DNA of 40,037 bases from Acidobacteriaceae bacterium (GTDB lineage Bacteria; Acidobacteriota; Terriglobia; Terriglobales; Acidobacteriaceae), in assembly GCA_025355505.1 (NCBI GenBank), contig JANXZM010000060.1, positions 1-40,037 of the forward strand. The letters are read 5' to 3'. Position numbers and translations under genes: made by a program. The notes under the pieces were generated by a model. The model made no database searches. It saw only the letters and a program-made list of their open reading frames with translations, and was not told the DNA's origin. Positions 4,234 through 36,579 of the stretch are shown here, piece after piece; the stretch's first letter is position 1; each line of letters starts with the position of its first letter.

Positions 4234-4341
4234 CGACTACGCCAGCGGCGCTGTGGTTTCCCTTTCCCGAGAAGTTATTTGCTTTTTATTCGCCTTGTGA
4301 CATACTGCGTTGCGGGCGCTGCCGAGCTTCGCTCGGATGAA

Positions 4342-4367
4342 CGGACGAGGGCGTCCGTCCCTACGTG
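4342..4367 (+). repeat. Dispersed palindromic repeat, copy 1
   Basis: The core is ACGGACG, AGGG, CGTCCGT followed by CCCTACGTG. The same 26 bases recur at 27987-28012 and with two changes at 36554-36579; a diverged inverted copy lies in mutS2 at 1260-1283. All except the mutS2 copy are intergenic. This one sits upstream of dnaB, preceded by a second small palindrome (GCCGAGC, TTC, GCTCGG) at about 4321-4336. Confidence 0.7.
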
Positions 4368-13068: not shown

Positions 13069-14763
13069 TTAGTCTCTGACCCCGTCCATGAATGCCCGCA
13101 GCTTCCGCGAGCGCGATGGATGCCGCAGCTTTCTCAGCGCCTTGGCCTCAATCTGCCGGATGCGTTCGCGCGTCACTGCAAACGATTGTCCGACTTCCTC
13201 AAGCGTGTGCTCCGAACCGTCTTCCAGCCCAAAGCGCATCTTGATGACCTTCTCCTCCCGCGGCGTCAGCGTGCGCAGCACCTGCGAAGTCTGGTCTTTG
13301 AGGTTGACGTTGATCACCGCCTCGGCCGGCGAAACCACCGCCCGGTCCTCGATGAAGTCGCCCAGATGCGAATCTTCCTCTTCGCCAATCGGCGTTTCGA
13401 GTGAGATCGGCTCCTGCGCAATCTTCAGGACTTTGCGAACCTTCGCCACCGGTATGTCCATCCGCTTGGCGATTTCTTCCGACGTAGGTTCGCGCCCCAG
13501 TTCCTGCACCAGCTGCCGCGACGTGCGGATCAGCTTGTTGATGGTTTCGATCATGTGCACTGGGATACGAATCGTACGCGCCTGATCGGCGATGGCGCGG
13601 GTAATGGCCTGCCGAATCCACCACGTCGCATAAGTCGAAAACTTATACCCGCGGCGGTATTCGAACTTGTCCACGGCTTTCATCAGGCCGATGTTGCCTT
13701 CCTGAATCAGGTCGAGGAACTGCAAGCCGCGATTGGTGTACTTTTTCGCAATCGAGACCACCAGCCGCAAGTTGGCTTCAATCAGCTCGCGCTTGGCGTG
13801 CTCCGCGTCCATGTCGCCCTGGATGATCTCGCGCTGCGTGCGCTTGAGCTCCTGGAACAACAGGCCCGCTTCCGTTTCGAGCTTTTCCAGCTCTCCCCGA
13901 ACCGCGCGCGACTGTTTGCGATATTCCTTGCGCTGTTCTTCGCTGCGCGTCGCCTCCGCCCGCTTCTCCAGATTCTGGATCTGTCGATCAAGCGAGCGCA
14001 TCCCGTCGACCGTGCGATTCACGCGGTCGATAAGCCGTTTGCGTTCGTTGTTGGTGAAGCCTAGCTTCCGCACCGCGATCGAAGTGCGTACAATCGCATG
14101 CGCCAGATGAAAACGGTACCGCCGATGATCGCGCGGCCGCTTCTTCTGATTCACCGCCGCCAGTTTTTCCTGGAGCGGCACTATTTTTTTGTAAAGCTTG
14201 TCGAGCGCGTGGATCTTGCCAAGAAATTCTTTCAGCCGCTTGTCCACAATCTCTTCCGTGATTTCCTCTTCGTCAAACGTAACCAGCTCTTTTATCGAGC
14301 GCACGCCCTTCTCGAGGTCCTCCCCCAAAGCTAGGAGTTCACGAATCACAATCGGCGACCGCGACAGCGCCTTGAGCACGCGGTTCTGCCCCCGCTCAAT
14401 GCGCTTGGCGATTTCCACTTCGCCTTCGCGAGTAAGCAAGGGAACAGTGCCCATCTCGCGGAGGTACATACGGACGGGGTCGTTGGTTTTTTCCAGGGCT
14501 CCGGGGGTCAGGTCGAGTTCTACTTCCTCGGAGCCTTCTTCTACTTCCTCGAATTTTTTTTCCAGATCGGTCGTCGGCCCTTTCGAGCTTTCGAGTATAT
14601 CGATTCCCTGGGTACCGATCGTGGTTAGCAGATCTTCCAGGTCTTCAGGAGAGTGCACATCGTGCGGGATAAGGTCGTTGACCTGATCATAGGTCAGATA
14701 TCCCTTCTCTTTGCCTGCGTCGATCAGCTTTTTTATGTCGTCGTACTTGTCATCAAGTGCCAA
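13069..14763 (-). CDS. rpoD: Primary sigma factor RpoD (sigma-70)
   Basis: The housekeeping sigma factor that directs RNA polymerase to promoters. The protein has 564 residues. Region 1.1 is at the N-terminus ([27 protein letters not shown]), followed by an acidic stretch. Region 1.2 is [22 protein letters not shown] non-conserved charged insert spans about residues 170-330. Region 2 carries the -10 recognition and melting residues ([20 protein letters not shown]). Regions 3 and 4 follow, the latter ending in a helix-turn-helix ([33 protein letters not shown]). It lies downstream of dnaG on the same strand with a 229-base gap, the classic primase-sigma gene order. The presence of TATAAT/TACAAT boxes in the window agrees with a standard sigma-70. 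Confidence 0.97.
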
Positions 14764-14992: not shown

Positions 14993-16978
14993 CTAGGATG
15001 CCTTGCTGCCGCCCTCTGCCCCGCTCGGATCCCTCTTGGCAAGCTTCAGACGAACTTTTTCCTGCAAAAGCGCATGCTTTTCCGTCATCGAAAGCCCCGG
15101 GCGCTCCACTGCTCGCTGCACTTCCCCCTGCCGTCGCTCCAGATAGCTCCTCCGCAATCCCCGCACCGCGCCTTCCACGGTCTCGGGCGTCAGCTCTTCC
15201 TCCTCGTGCATGAGGATCGAGGCCAAGAGGCGCCGGTCCTCTTCCGTCTTGGGCAGCGCCATCGGATCCGCCGTTTCGGAGCCGGCCTCGATCAGCGCCT
15301 CGAGCAGCGATTGCGAGGCCAGGCCCTCATACAGCTGCTCCGATTGCAGCGCATATTGCGCCTGCCGTGCGGGATCGAATTCCTCATCCGTTCCTTCGCG
15401 AGACGTGGTCCGCGTACCGCTGGCTAGCATCTCGGTCGCCGAAGCCAGCGCCCGGATCAGGATGCGTTCCGCGCCAGTGATCTGCGTGTCAGGGGTAGTT
15501 TTCACCTGGGTTGCCGACCGGTTGGTGACGACATTTTTCAATTCCTGCCGCATCACCTTGGAATCGATTCCCAGCTTCTGCGCAATTTCGAGCGCCAGTT
15601 CATCGCGCACGATGCGACTGGGTATCCGCTGAATGTGCGGCAGTAGATGGTTGATCGCCTTAATTTTGCTATCCGCGTTCCGCGGCGGAAACTGTACACG
15701 CGCCTGATCGATTAGATAGTCAAAATATTTTTGCGAGTTCTTGATCGCGGAGCCATAAGCTTCCTTGCCCTTGCGCCGGATGAACAGGTCGGGGTCAAAG
15801 CCACTGTCCAGGGTGATGATTTTAATGTTGAATTCTTCTTCGACCAGCAAGCCGAGGGTGCGCTCCGTGGCGCGGGCTCCGGCGGTATCGGGATCGAAGT
15901 TGACCACCACATTTTTCGAGAAACGCCCCAGCAATTTCGCCTGCAGCTCGGTGAACGCCGTACCCGAGCTGGCAATCACATTGTGGAAACCAGCCGAGTA
16001 AACCGAAATGCAATCCATCTGCCCTTCGACCAGGATGGAGTACTCAAGCTTGCGAATCGCGTCTTTAGCATTGTCTATATTGAACAGCGCGCGCGATTTC
16101 GAGTAGATCCCGGTCTCGGGAGAATTCAGATATTTCGGCCCTGCCTTGTCGTCCGTAGAAAGCGTGCGTCCGGTAAAGGCGATTACTTTTCCCTGGTCGT
16201 TGCATATGGGGAACATTACGCGATTGCGGAATTTGGAGTAGATGGCTGCGGGCTGCGGGCTGCGAGCCATAAGCTGCGACGGGTCGCTGTTCGTCGTTCG
16301 CTGATCGTCGTTCGCGTCGGACGTCTCCACCGTATTGTCATCCTGAGCGGAGCGAAGGACCTGCTTTGGCTGCGAGCTGCGACCGGATGGCTGAGTGCTC
16401 TCTTTCCACGAAAAAAGCCCGCTCTCCCGCAGCAGTTCCTCGTCGAACTCCCGGCGCAGCGCGTCGCGCAGCAGGAATCCGGAGTCGGGAGCGTAGCCGA
16501 TGCGAAAGCGGGCAATTGTCTCCGCATCGAGGCCGCGCCCCTTCAGGTACTCGCGAGCACTGGCGCCTTCAGGACGCCGCAGACATTCCTGAAAAAACGC
16601 GGTAGCGCGCACATGCACATCGAGCAGCGCCATCCGGGCCTGAGCGTCGCGCGCCTCCGCCGGACTGGAAAACGTGACCTTCGGCATCGGCACGCCGAGC
16701 TTCTGAGCCAGCAGCCGGACGGCTTCCGGGAAGGTGATGTTCTCGACCTTCCGGACAAAGGCGAACACGTCCCCCGATTCTCCGCAGCCAAAGCAGTGAT
16801 AAAACTGCCGCGTGGCATGCACCGAAAACGAAGGCGTCTTCTCAGGATGAAACGGACAAAGCCCGGAGAAGTTCTGCGCCCCAGCCTTCTTCAGCTTGAC
16901 GTAGTCGCCAATGATGCGGACGATATCCGCCTGCTGCTTGAGCGACTCTTTGAAGTTGTCCGAAGAAGTCGAAGTCAT
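14993..16978 (-). CDS. dnaG: DNA primase DnaG, with an unusual internal insertion
   Basis: DnaG synthesises RNA primers at the fork and works with DnaB (4516-5880). The protein has 661 residues. An N-terminal CHC2 zinc finger is complete (CPFHPEKTPSF and FYHCFGCGESGDVF). The catalytic core includes FRNRVMFPI, the Toprim motifs SILVEGQMDCIS and VVNFDPDTAGARA, and a C-terminal helicase-binding region. Between FSWKE and IYSKFRNRV, where known primases have only a few residues, about 52 codons (16244-16399) encode a low-complexity Ser/Gln/Asp/Pro-rich segment. Its DNA resembles intergenic repeat. The frame is kept and flanking motifs are intact, so the enzyme is probably functional. The start at 16978 matches the family N-terminus. 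Confidence 0.95.
   Translation of the reverse strand: MTSTSSDNFKESLKQQADIVRIIGDYVKLKKAGAQNFSGLCPFHPEKTPSFSVHATRQFYHCFGCGESGDVFAFVRKVENITFPEAVRLLAQKLGVPMPKVTFSSPAEARDAQARMALLDVHVRATAFFQECLRRPEGASAREYLKGRGLDAETIARFRIGYAPDSGFLLRDALRREFDEELLRESGLFSWKESTQPSGRSSQPKQVLRSAQDDNTVETSDANDDQRTTNSDPSQLMARSPQPAAIYSKFRNRVMFPICNDQGKVIAFTGRTLSTDDKAGPKYLNSPETGIYSKSRALFNIDNAKDAIRKLEYSILVEGQMDCISVYSAGFHNVIASSGTAFTELQAKLLGRFSKNVVVNFDPDTAGARATERTLGLLVEEEFNIKIITLDSGFDPDLFIRRKGKEAYGSAIKNSQKYFDYLIDQARVQFPPRNADSKIKAINHLLPHIQRIPSRIVRDELALEIAQKLGIDSKVMRQELKNVVTNRSATQVKTTPDTQITGAERILIRALASATEMLASGTRTTSREGTDEEFDPARQAQYALQSEQLYEGLASQSLLEALIEAGSETADPMALPKTEEDRRLLASILMHEEEELTPETVEGAVRGLRRSYLERRQGEVQRAVERPGLSMTEKHALLQEKVRLKLAKRDPSGAEGGSKAS
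16244..16399 (-). repeat. Repeat-derived in-frame insertion within dnaG
   Basis: This stretch holds a CCTGAGCGGAGCGAAGGA element (16342-16359), a type of short dispersed repeat found in many bacterial genomes. It is flanked by AGCT/GCTGCGGG-rich low-complexity DNA like that seen between genes upstream of folC (about 34040-34066). Read on the coding strand it gives KQVLRSAQDD and an S/Q/P-rich peptide within primase. Confidence 0.65.
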
Positions 16979-17178: not shown

Positions 17179-17997
17179 TCAGTATGGCCCGAGGAATCTA
17201 ACCCCGTTGAAATGTATCAAGTGCGTTGGAGCGTCGGAAACCCACACCTCTGTCTCCCAAGCGATATCCCGCAGGTAGCGAGTCATGACTGCCTTGGAAG
17301 GAAAGGCTGTGACATAAACCAACCCAGCCGAGGACGTGGCGAATAGATTGGCCAATTCGGCATGGCGTTTGCCGTCAACTGGCCCGTGGCTTGTTACGCA
17401 CTCAATGAGTACCAACCACTGCTTCTCTGGATAATAAAGAACCACATCCGGCATCTTGCCGTGTGCATCTATTATCACGCCCATTTTAGCCAATTGTTCT
17501 TTGGCAAATAGCCCCCACTTTGTGCCTGTGTCTCCGGCATACACGAGCACAGCACCCGGTACAAACCTGGACGCAAACTCCTCAACAACCGCCTTGATGA
17601 GCAAGCTATGCACGCCGCCGCTCAGAGTCAGTTTCTTGCCGTCAAGAGTTTGAACGGGAATGCGGTTCATAGTTCGTTCCATTGCGTACCGCTCCGCCAA
17701 TGTACGACGCGTAGACAGGTAGGTCTGAAGGCCAACTCGCCAAGCGGCGCTTCCATATGCTCTCAGGATTTTCAGGAGCTCAGGTTCAATCTGATAGGCC
17801 GCATGAGGGCTGTTCACCGGCCGTTCAGGTTCGTCGGGGCTGTACAGCGCGATACCAGCCGCAACAAATTGGTGCATCGTTTGTCTTCTAAACGTTTCTC
17901 TCGTGTTGGGGGCGTAGTCCTCCTTGTAATGAATCCGGGTAAAATTTATCACGGGCGTGATGCCCACAACGGACATCGGCCAAAAAGTCTTCGCCAT
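17179..17997 (-). CDS. BsuBI/PstI-family type II restriction endonuclease, short N-terminus
   Basis: The family cuts CTGCAG; specificity here is inferred from family only. Recognisable stretches are YAPNTRETFRRQTMHQFV, RPVNSPHAAYQIEP, AGDTGTKWGLF, HGKMPDVVLYYPEKQWLVLIECVTSHGPVDGKR and IAWETEVWVSDAPTHLIHFNG. The active-site D, E and nearby residues in the PDVV...LIEC block are present. From ATG 17997 it has 272 residues; BsuBI/PstI enzymes have roughly 315-330, so about 45 N-terminal residues are missing. The frame stays open to 18123, but that part overlaps the divergent XRE gene and shows at best a faint match (EALDRPRLQ). The cognate methyltransferase fragment lies at 19491-20079 on the same strand, separated by a plus-strand cassette. 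It may be inactive. Confidence 0.85.
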   Translation of the reverse strand: MAKTFWPMSVVGITPVINFTRIHYKEDYAPNTRETFRRQTMHQFVAAGIALYSPDEPERPVNSPHAAYQIEPELLKILRAYGSAAWRVGLQTYLSTRRTLAERYAMERTMNRIPVQTLDGKKLTLSGGVHSLLIKAVVEEFASRFVPGAVLVYAGDTGTKWGLFAKEQLAKMGVIIDAHGKMPDVVLYYPEKQWLVLIECVTSHGPVDGKRHAELANLFATSSAGLVYVTAFPSKAVMTRYLRDIAWETEVWVSDAPTHLIHFNGVRFLGPY

Positions 17998-18042
17998 AAG
18001 ACTGCTACTTATCGTCTGCAGACGCGGCCTGTCCAAAGCTTC

Positions 18043-18048
18043 TACAAT
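18043..18048 (+). promoter_or_regulatory. Putative -10 box of the XRE regulator
   Basis: TACAAT ends 9 bases before ATG 18058, in the 60-base divergent space between the endonuclease and regulator genes. A CTGCAG site, the sequence cut by this endonuclease family, lies just upstream at 18016-18021. No clear repeated C-box was found. Confidence 0.4.
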
Positions 18049-18057
18049 CCGGCTTTG

Positions 18058-18369
18058 ATGGATCGAAGAATCGCGTTTGGGAGACGGCTTAATGCGATAA
18101 GGAGTAGTCTCGGGTACTCGCAAGAGCGACTCGCAGAATTGGCGTGCTTACACCGGACGTACATTGGTGGTGTTGAGCGCGGAGAGCGCAATATCAGCTT
18201 GGTTAACATTTGGCGCATTGCCGACGCTCTAGAGATCAACCCCTCGGCCCTCTTTGAGCCTCCTCGCGAGGTTGCGGCTTCCAAATCGCTGCCCACCGGC
18301 AGGAGTGTACCTACCGCGAAAGGAACATCGAGGAAGGTCGGCATGTGGACGAAGAGACGGAAGCGATAG
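18058..18369 (+). CDS. XRE-family regulator, restriction control (C)-protein type
   Basis: A 103-residue DNA-binding protein. Residues about 5-65 form a helix-turn-helix of the Cro/C1 type: YSQERLAELACLHRTYIGGVERGERN, then SLVNIWRIADALEINPSALFE. The HRTYIGGVERGERN wording is typical of controllers of restriction-modification systems. The C-terminal 35 residues are basic and polar (ending RKVGMWTKRRKR) with no known fold. ATG 18058 matches the natural start of the domain. Its end overlaps the next gene by 25 bases, so both are translated from one message. It is divergent from the BsuBI/PstI-type endonuclease gene and could repress or activate both sides. Confidence 0.85.
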   Translation: MDRRIAFGRRLNAIRSSLGYSQERLAELACLHRTYIGGVERGERNISLVNIWRIADALEINPSALFEPPREVAASKSLPTGRSVPTAKGTSRKVGMWTKRRKR

Positions 18370-27929: not shown

Positions 27930-27986
27930 TTCGCGAAGTAGAAGGCCTGGGCGCCTGGCTTGGCGTTGCCGATGCGCGCAGCTGGA

Positions 27987-28012
27987 CGGACGAGGGCGTC
28001 CGTCCCTACGTG
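27987..28012 (+). repeat. Dispersed palindromic repeat, copy 2
   Basis: Identical over 26 bases to the copy at 4342-4367. It lies in the 118-base gap between nadD and rsfS, directly upstream of a TACAAT hexamer (28030-28035) that ends 12 bases before the rsfS start. Confidence 0.7.
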
Positions 28013-30172: not shown

Positions 30173-30198
30173 ACGATCGACTCCCCCGTTTGACTCGA

Positions 30199-30234
30199 GG
30201 CGGACGGAAGCCAAAACCGTCCGCCTTTCTTTTG
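30199..30234 (+). terminator. Intrinsic terminator after the small protein
   Basis: GGCGGACGG (30199-30207) pairs with CCGTCCGCC (30217-30225), loop AAGCCAAAA, then TTTCTTTT. Nearly the same unit recurs at 31567-31598. Confidence 0.88.
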
Positions 30235-31529: not shown

Positions 31530-31566
31530 ACGCGAAACTAAAGATCAACTCCCCATTTGACTCGCA

Positions 31567-31598
31567 GGCGGACGGAAGCCAAAACCGTCCGCTTTTTT
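31567..31598 (+). terminator. Intrinsic terminator after the SBP56-like gene
   Basis: GCGGACGG (31568-31575) pairs with CCGTCCGC (31585-31592), followed by TTTTTT. The loop and about 25 bases upstream match the terminator at 30199-30234 closely. Confidence 0.88.
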
Positions 31599-31616
31599 GT
31601 TTGTCGCCACACTTGG

Positions 31617-33852: not shown

Positions 33853-34069
33853 AGTAGCTCTTGCCTCTTAGCTTTCAGTTTCGTTCCTCAGTTCTCGCTC
33901 GGCGAGGCCAATCTAAGGCGCTTACCGTCAAAAACATAAATGCCTGCCGGGTTGCGCTATTGCCCGCTCAGTGCATGGTTTGACTTTTGAGTGTGGTTTT
34001 CTGGATAGCCTGGAAGCAAAGATTGAAACTGTACCCTGAGAGCTGATAGCCGAGAGCTAAGAGCTGACC

Positions 34070-35485: not shown

Positions 35486-36373
35486 GTGAAGAAGTTTGAA
35501 AACAAAACCTTGAATAAGATCGCCACAACTGCGGGGCCCGAAAAAGAACGGGCCGAGTTGCGCTCGGCTGGACAGCCGGGGGCGGCTGTGCCTGCGTGGC
35601 CCGGGAAGCGCCCCGCAGCTCGCCCCAAAACCCGCCATGGCTGGCCGAGCCGCCTGCGCTCGTACTATATTCTTGATCCGCTGATCTGGGCTTACACGCT
35701 GATTCTGGGCACGCTTTCTCTGATCTGTTCGCTCTTCGACCGCAACGGGCTCATCCAGCACAATTTTGCGCGCCTCTGGTCGTGGCTCGTCATGAAGACG
35801 ATCCTCTCGCCGGTAAGAGTCACGGGCTTGGATAACAGTAACTTCGACAACTCCAAACCTCGCGTCTATGCGGTAACGCACGCGTCGGCGCTCGACATCC
35901 CGATCCTCTACGTCAATTTGCCGTTTCAATTTCGCATCATTTTTAAGAGTGAATTGCTCGCGTATCCATTCGTGGGCTGGCATTTGAAGCGCTCGGGGCA
36001 AGTCTGCATCAACCAGCAGAATCCGGCGGCTTCGATCGGCGCCATCAAGTCCGCTCTGCGGAACTTGCGCAGCGCCATGCCACTGGTCATCTTTCCCGAG
36101 GGCGGCCGTACGCGAGATGGCCAGATTCAACCTTTTCTGCCAGGCGCATTTTTTCTGGCAATCAAGGCGCAGGCCGATATCATTCCGATTGCGCTTGTGG
36201 ACACTTTCGACCTGCTGCCGATGAACACCTACCACATCAAGTGCCAGGCGCTGGAGATGCGAGTTGGTGAACCAATCTCCACCGCCGGGTTGACCGTGCA
36301 AGATACGGACGATGTGTCAGCCAAAGTAAAATCCGCGATCGAAGCTCTGCACTCCGCGCCCAGAACTGCGTAG
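35486..36373 (+). CDS. plsC: 1-acyl-sn-glycerol-3-phosphate acyltransferase
   Basis: PlsC acylates lysophosphatidic acid to phosphatidic acid in membrane-lipid synthesis. The frame gives 295 residues. After a hydrophobic anchor (LIWAYTLILGTLSLICSLF) come motif I HASALDIP (H-x4-D), motif II around FKSELLAYPFVGWHLKRSGQVCINQ, motif III FPEGGRTRDG and motif IV IPIALVDT. The first 50 or so residues are basic and low complexity and include a piece encoded by an inverted-repeat element (35568-35589). Conserved sequence begins near LRSYYILDP. The true start may therefore be later, for example GTG 35588, instead of GTG 35486. Confidence 0.88.
   Translation: MKKFENKTLNKIATTAGPEKERAELRSAGQPGAAVPAWPGKRPAARPKTRHGWPSRLRSYYILDPLIWAYTLILGTLSLICSLFDRNGLIQHNFARLWSWLVMKTILSPVRVTGLDNSNFDNSKPRVYAVTHASALDIPILYVNLPFQFRIIFKSELLAYPFVGWHLKRSGQVCINQQNPAASIGAIKSALRNLRSAMPLVIFPEGGRTRDGQIQPFLPGAFFLAIKAQADIIPIALVDTFDLLPMNTYHIKCQALEMRVGEPISTAGLTVQDTDDVSAKVKSAIEALHSAPRTA
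35568..35589 (+). repeat. Left inverted repeat, inside the plsC frame
   Basis: Twenty-two bases that reappear as an exact reverse complement at 36376-36397. The unit itself is partly palindromic (GACAGCC, GGGGGC, GGCTGT). Confidence 0.75.
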
Positions 36374-36397: not shown

Positions 36398-36553
36398 GCG
36401 AACTCAGCTCGTCAGCGCCGCTGACAATTTCCTCCATCATCCGTCATAATCTTCTGTTCGTCTTGATTCTGGAGGTGTCATGAAGTCCCTAGGTGCGCAA
36501 AACGCGTCCGGGTTTTCGTCTCCGCTTTAGCTGCGCAGTTCCGCCCCGCCGGG

Positions 36554-36579
36554 CGGACGAGGGCGTCCGCCCCTACGCG
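36554..36579 (+). repeat. Dispersed palindromic repeat, copy 3
   Basis: Differs from the copies at 4342-4367 and 27987-28012 at two positions. It lies in the 252-base plsC-thrS gap, about 50 bases before the thrS start. No T-box leader is evident in this gap. Confidence 0.7.

Follow-up and report, generated by a model that had tools for sequence, protein, structure and literature searches.

The dnaG gene of an Acidobacteriaceae genome contains a 33-nt REP-like unit that lies in frame within a loop of DNA primase. No other part of the gene is as conserved in its nucleotides, although the amino acids encoded by the unit vary. As judged from orthologous sequences, the letters of the unit are substituted at a far lower rate than those of the rest of dnaG or of the flank that adjoins them, and this holds for silent positions too. 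The presence of the unit in the loop and its frame are read directly from these sequences, and the disorder of the loop is predicted from a structural model. A first-pass annotation of the same DNA had reported that an essential replication gene carries a dispersed repeat within its reading frame and retains all flanking motifs, which the open frame and the primase Pfam domains of the product bear out; the near-absence of silent change in the unit is a property that it did not foresee.

The window, that is, the whole stretch of DNA that was analysed, is an entire contig of 40,037 bp, and the host genome is a 4.16-Mb draft in 119 contigs (labelled G000). The features relevant to the analysis are the following:

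13069 to 14763, minus strand (same as dnaG): rpoD-type sigma-70 gene downstream of dnaG, with Pfam sigma-70 regions 1.1 to 4.
14993 to 16978, minus strand: dnaG, encoding a DNA primase of 661 aa; an open frame with the Pfam domains zinc ribbon, DNAG_N, Toprim and DnaB_bind, matching PDB primases by sequence and by fold.
16237 to 16275, no strand assigned: degenerate heptanucleotide tract (GCTGCGG/GCTGCGA) found in a lag-7 scan and reaching 4 nt beyond the linker end.
16241 to 16402, minus strand: hypervariable linker of 54 codons (E193-I246), from FSWK to YSKFRNR, based on the comparison of 22 DnaGs of the genus and 8 others of the family and on pLDDT <50 at residues 195-241.
16286 to 16315, minus strand: degenerate heptanucleotide tract encoding ANDDQRTTNS, read from the sequence and in line with the lag-7 excess of the linkers.
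16334 to 16366, minus strand: REP-like unit of 33 nt encoding KQVLRSAQDDN (the family's own consensus reads on the plus strand), based on 113 genomic copies, on consensus and edges, and on near-invariance in 13 of 22 genus DnaGs.
16367 to 16396, minus strand: degenerate heptanucleotide tract lying N-terminal to the unit and encoding TQPSGRSSQP, read from the sequence and in line with the same lag-7 excess.

In G000, dnaG is the sole match of the protein query P0001. An antisense frame of 428 aa over dnaG was set aside for want of a Pfam match, and a gene for a BsuBI/PstI-type restriction endonuclease (17179-18123, minus strand) lies directly upstream.

The insert had been placed at 16244-16399 with about 52 codons; an extra linker is indeed found between FSWK and YSKFRNR, but it measures 54 codons and spans 16241-16402. 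That other primases are short at this point is confirmed by seven more distant Acidobacteriota DnaGs (L094, L096-L101; L095, which did not fit the search pattern, is left out of these lengths), in which no conserved insert is seen and the linker comprises 8-14 residues. The DnaG linker was read in 8 of 13 genomes outside the genus but within the family and comprises 19-58 residues there; the loop is thus long already in the family, and the REP-like unit is one part of it. In the AlphaFold model of DnaG (overall mean pLDDT 82.4), residues 195-241 have pLDDT <50, with strands at 189-191 and 246-248 on either side, so that the linker is predicted to be disordered and to sit at the tip of a beta-hairpin of an otherwise intact primase fold. 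A Foldseek search with this model ranks solved DnaG structures first, including the ssDNA-bound 3b39, and sequence comparison indicates that the loop directly precedes a strand alignable with solved primases. According to the accessible part of PMC5429622, mutation of W165, R199 and R201 of the E. coli primase and of their B. subtilis counterparts weakens template binding. The equivalents of E. coli R199 and R201, placed by pattern and not by numbering, probably lie in the strand right after the loop.

The DnaG linker is composed of heptanucleotide-repeat DNA plus one 33-nt unit, and the repeat part turns over fast in both length and sequence. When the unit is removed, the linkers of 22 species match themselves at 0.497 at lag 7, 0.447 at lag 14 and 0.22-0.30 at other lags; the lag-7 match ranges from 0.34 to 0.65 in the individual species and is 0.25 in the remainder of dnaG. 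A strict heptanucleotide scan of 357 kb yielded zero lag-7 tracts; with looser settings lag 7 gave 12 tracts and lag 14 gave 8, as opposed to 1-3 at lags 5, 8, 10, 11 and 13, with lags that are multiples of three giving 10-23. Two earlier descriptions are refined by these data. The “GCTGCGGG/AGCT-rich spacer” does resemble intergenic DNA, a comparable tract being present at 34036-34066, but its nature is that of a degenerate heptanucleotide repeat. Likewise, the approximately 156 nt read as a repeat insertion contain one 33-nt unit, but the rest is hypervariable heptanucleotide linker and not part of a single element.

The 18-mer at 16342-16359 is the sole match in the window at ≤3 mismatches, a result also given by 5 of 100 shuffles, and the conserved unit extends beyond it, reading about TTGTCATCCTGAGCG(A/G)AGCGAAGGACCTGCTTT. 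Genome-wide, the 26-mer TCATCCTGAGCGNAGCGAAGGAYCTG has 113 matches at ≤3 mismatches and its reversed control 0; the repeat is therefore dispersed, as had been proposed, and its other copies are plentiful. Among the 84 copies first read, the consensus TGTCATCCTGAGCG...CTG includes TGTCAT (columns at least 0.96), the central base is mostly A (79 copies, with G in 3), and neighbouring copies form 16 inverted and 15 direct pairs. As DNA, an inverted pair of units folds at -41.3 kcal/mol, compared with -11.2 for shuffles. A lone unit folds weakly (-2.2 kcal/mol as DNA, with 117 of 200 shuffles equally good) into 4 + 2 pairs around mismatches, and a stem pair is broken in two dnaG copies of the genus (G011 and G016). 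At ≤2 mismatches the unit occurs in 35 of 61 genomes. All 24 genomes of the genus carry it, with 4-187 copies each, as do 9 of the 13 further members of the family and 2 of 10 from the rest of the class, but none of the 14 from the other family of the order. The G000 genome has 8 matches to Y1_Tnp, and a related copy was found at one of the eight loci, about 250 nt away (up to 1.5 kb was read on each side, several loci being cut by contig ends). The Y1 transposase frame at L042 has its own long direct repeats (LSGEPGLVEIESQW...) on either side, and these do not resemble the unit. Other repeats were also observed in the window. A second dispersed palindromic repeat, of the GGACGAGGGCGTCCGTCCCTACG type, is present in four copies of 48 nt (4318-4365, 27963-28010, 35549-35596 and 36530-36577), of which that at 4318-4365 falls within the dnaB frame as called, in its N-terminal extension, and two terminator-like hairpins with T runs (30198-30233 and 31566-31601), 92% identical, lie 1.4 kb apart.

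Linkers of dnaG were obtained from 22 of the 24 genomes of the genus, G012 and G021 yielding no dnaG match. The unit is not private to the genome in question: it is near-intact in 13 of the 22 genus DnaGs, and five DnaGs of related lineages carry variants of it. The best match to its 27-nt core shows 0 changes in 8 genus DnaGs, 1 in 4 and 2 in 1; none has 3-4 changes, G018, in which the unit is interrupted, has 5, and the remaining 8 have 11-16, which is the chance level. Three further linkers (G018, G006 and G020) resemble broken units, G006 and G020 retaining a recognisable end, and 6 of 22 are without any trace. Within the 13 near-intact copies, on which the rates rest to the exclusion of G018, G006 and G020, 3.4% of same-residue codon pairs are unequal within the unit vs 42% in 330 other columns of invariant amino acid; composition-matched draws give 40% (sd 6%), and 0 of 20,000 were as low as the unit. 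Among 655 nine-codon windows of dnaG, the 13 lowest all overlap the unit. By parsimony, the 27 nt of the unit require 6 changes. Sets of 27 four-fold sites require 90.6 on average (never fewer than 56 in 20,000 draws), and at core first and second positions the figure is 0.72 per site. A single tree underlies all of these conservation figures, and 4 of its 19 inner branches have good support. In the five species whose adjoining flank could be aligned, differences amount to 0.024 per nt in the unit and to 0.378 in the 18 nt that follow, and silent divergence is near normal beside the linker (0.41 in the ten codons before it and 0.35 in the ten after).

An ordinary explanation would be that a neutral, disordered linker caught a common repeat and that the apparent freezing is an artefact of picking repeat-like copies. 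Various repeats are likewise present in the linkers of RNase R, DnaE2 and Tgt, and copies are indeed recognised by similarity, which favours conserved ones, so that the distribution of change counts serves as the check. The lack of a half-decayed continuum, with no copy at 3-4 changes, answers this concern: with 8 of 22 copies identical, the distribution is unlike that of drift at a silent divergence of about 0.4, and drift is evident in the flank of the very same molecules. This explanation is regarded as scarcely credible. Only marginally more credible, and still very improbable, is protein-level selection retaining the peptide QVLRSAQDD for a role in primase. Such a role could be suggested by the frame, which the genus copies and the units of the five related DnaGs have in common, and by the position of the loop just before the strand aligned with solved primases, near the template-binding residues described in the available portion of PMC5429622 (a placement by pattern). 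The peptide does not, however, appear to be what is protected, because four of the six changes in the unit alter it (V>G, L>P, V>I and D>H); moreover, the silent sites are frozen, and six of the 22 genus DnaGs do without the unit altogether. The upkeep is therefore inferred to act on DNA or RNA letters and not on the peptide.

The history of the unit bears on two further explanations, in which it only looks old. All 13 near-intact dnaG units carry a GGA core (Ser), and exact copies in 24 genomes number 48 with GGA, the dnaG ones included, vs 713 with GAA; as all 13 share a variant that accounts for 6% of exact copies, one old insertion is favoured over repeated arrival. Homogenisation, by which conversion from genomic copies or fresh insertions would keep overwriting the dnaG unit so that it always appears young, is considered unlikely, although a number of observations would suit it. 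Near-identical copies are plentiful (the 113 noted above), the core of the tgt copies alternates between GAA and GGA, a combination of heptanucleotides with the unit recurs in the linkers of dnaG and tgt alike, and the DnaGs of related lineages carry other variants, that of L088 having a CCC/GGG stem also common in its genome. The uniform GGA of dnaG, set against 48 of 761 exact copies, speaks against it, as does the 2.9-Mb draft genome G065, in which the dnaG unit is the only match to the family at ≤2 mismatches. The variants just mentioned occupy the same place and frame in DnaGs of Ca. Sulfotelmatobacter (L088-L091) and in L093; their inner stem triplets are CCC/GGG, TCC/GGA (twice), CCT/AGG and TCT/AGA, which reflects either pairing kept through two-sided changes or replacement by another subfamily.

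Recent horizontal spread, in which a unit-bearing linker allele recombined between species and the unit is young in an old gene, is judged somewhat more doubtful again. On the core tree the unit has a patchy distribution (8 changes, with 448 of 500 shuffles as low), and the sisters G011 and G001 have unrelated dnaG linkers; both observations suit exchange between species. A loop of this kind can readily lose the unit by deletion, but exchange between species is likely as well. The near-normal silent divergence on both sides of the linker, however, argues against recent spread, and the alignable flank right after the unit has diverged, so that exchanged tracts would need to end at the edges of the unit. 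Conversion and recent spread are thus the weaker readings, given the rare GGA core and the diverged flank.

Copies of the unit were also found in other genes of G000. Of the 113 copies, 104 were read, and six of these are located well inside five Pfam-supported genes: one each in dnaG, tgt, dnaE2 and rnr, and an inverted pair in a penicillin acylase gene; one further copy lies in the tail of a GNAT frame. A codon-usage score called 2 of 84 copies coding (dnaG and rnr) and was not used for these counts, since it missed the DnaE2 and penicillin acylase copies that are evident from open frames and Pfam domains. The penicillin acylase frame (L047:3379-6219) translates the whole inverted pair, shortly before a GSNNWVVSG motif. 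In tgt, a composite like that of dnaG, with heptanucleotides and the unit in the same frame, is present in the linkers of 6 of 16 genomes read (of 24); it is clearest in five genomes, interrupted in G001 and degraded in G000. A pattern for the composite has 9 zero-mismatch matches across the 24 genomes, all of them in dnaG (6) or tgt (3). In five species the tgt unit differs at 0-3 of 27 nt, and downstream same-residue codons differ at 0.26-0.48. RNase R linkers (18 of 24 genomes, L231-L255) hold dispersed repeats that differ by species, of the HPERSEG, HPDPE..EGEG and HDFSRA types, with HPE/HPA..SEG-type repeats in 3 genomes and HPDPE..EGEG in 3. DnaE2 linkers were viewed at 7 of 21 loci; the DnaE2 of G022 contains a copy in the same orientation as in G000. 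These observations show that, in this group, genomic repeats recurrently land in exposed loops of such housekeeping enzymes as DnaG, Tgt, RNase R and DnaE2. Between genes, an orthologous copy about 50 nt after dnaE2, common to G013 and G017, is about as alike as its flanks, and upkeep outside genes is thus neither shown nor excluded by it. The halves of the unit are split by unrelated in-frame sequence in the dnaG of G018 (L012) and in the tgt of G001 (L298), and the dnaG linker of G005 (L019) contains, in addition to the unit and 40 nt away from it, a REP of the CCC/GGG kind. An opposite-orientation motif in G029 (EPALSGAKGP) was considered as a second independent insertion; it matches with mismatches only and is kept as suggestive.

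Taken as a whole, the account that we find about evenly balanced between right and wrong is that of an old REP-like insertion in a tolerant loop, followed by upkeep at the level of DNA or RNA, with the peptide carried along. In an ancestor of the genus, and probably of the related lineages too, an element of about 33 nt would have entered the beta-hairpin loop of DnaG, which was already loose and exposed. The insertion may have been tolerated as one of the element's four stop-free frames matched and the loop would accept almost any hydrophilic peptide. The remainder of the loop is heptanucleotide-repeat DNA with fast turnover, and across the 22 genomes the unit has either stayed nearly unchanged in its nucleotides or been lost outright. 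What the unit has in common with other copies of the family, for example a structure or a factor that binds them, may impose the constraint. A more specific version, offered tentatively and as the less probable side of the question, is that the dnaG unit is a domesticated REP-derived cis element upstream of rpoD, read as DNA or RNA (a structure, a bound protein, a pause or a processing site), with silent positions under more constraint than the amino-acid positions of primase. Counting against DNA- or RNA-level upkeep are the patchy presence of the unit, the fold of the lone unit, which is no better than that of shuffles, and the stem pair broken in G011 and G016.

Several known systems resemble the unit in part. 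The CGTC/TGTC-tagged REPs (Di Nocera et al. 2013), as far as the accessible text of PMC3733652 describes them, share with it a TGTC at one end followed by AT, a short unit and inverted pairs, an occurrence as single units and dimers that are mostly intergenic (here 16 inverted neighbours among 84 copies and 6 of 104 copies genic), and some copies in genes for DNA synthesis or repair. They differ from it in the stem, which is short and interrupted here and comprises 8-9 bp with a loop of 4-5 bases in theirs, and in the tail, which is CTG here, whereas theirs fits CCA. As the tag, the dimers and the location agree and the stem and tail do not, the unit is called CGTC/TGTC-like and is not assigned to that family. 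The REPIN-RAYT systems, judging from the available parts of PMC8049555 and PMC6006769, resemble the present repeat in its inverted pairs, which lie about 50 bp apart and form a long hairpin, in its many near-identical copies and in the 8 Y1_Tnp matches of the genome. The unit is without their GTAG tag, and one of the 8 Y1_Tnp loci has a related copy within the stretch read around it.

The likeness to Rickettsia palindromic elements (RPEs) drawn in the first-pass annotation is apt, as RPE-4 and RPE-6 are included among the CGTC/TGTC-tagged REPs in the accessible text of PMC3733652. As general background, RPEs are translated in frame in known genes and have other copies elsewhere. The likeness is one of mode: in G000 the frame is kept in dnaG, tgt, dnaE2, rnr and the penicillin acylase gene. 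Unlike RPEs, the unit is about 33 nt long, and its genic copy is traceable in 22 orthologues and frozen at silent sites. The same portion of PMC3733652 lists REPs within genes of DNA repair and synthesis (uvrA, dnaE2 and others), and its authors found the relevance of genic REPs to the protein hard to judge; the words “primase”, “dnaG” and “synonymous” are absent from its main text. A literature search, with most subscription papers outside its scope, found no paper on a primase with a Rickettsia palindromic element or on the core of the present repeat. REPs within genes are already known, from the CGTC REPs and the RPEs of Rickettsia, and the dnaG case constitutes a new variant, with which the question of whether genic repeats are selfish, neutral or functional becomes testable at one site.
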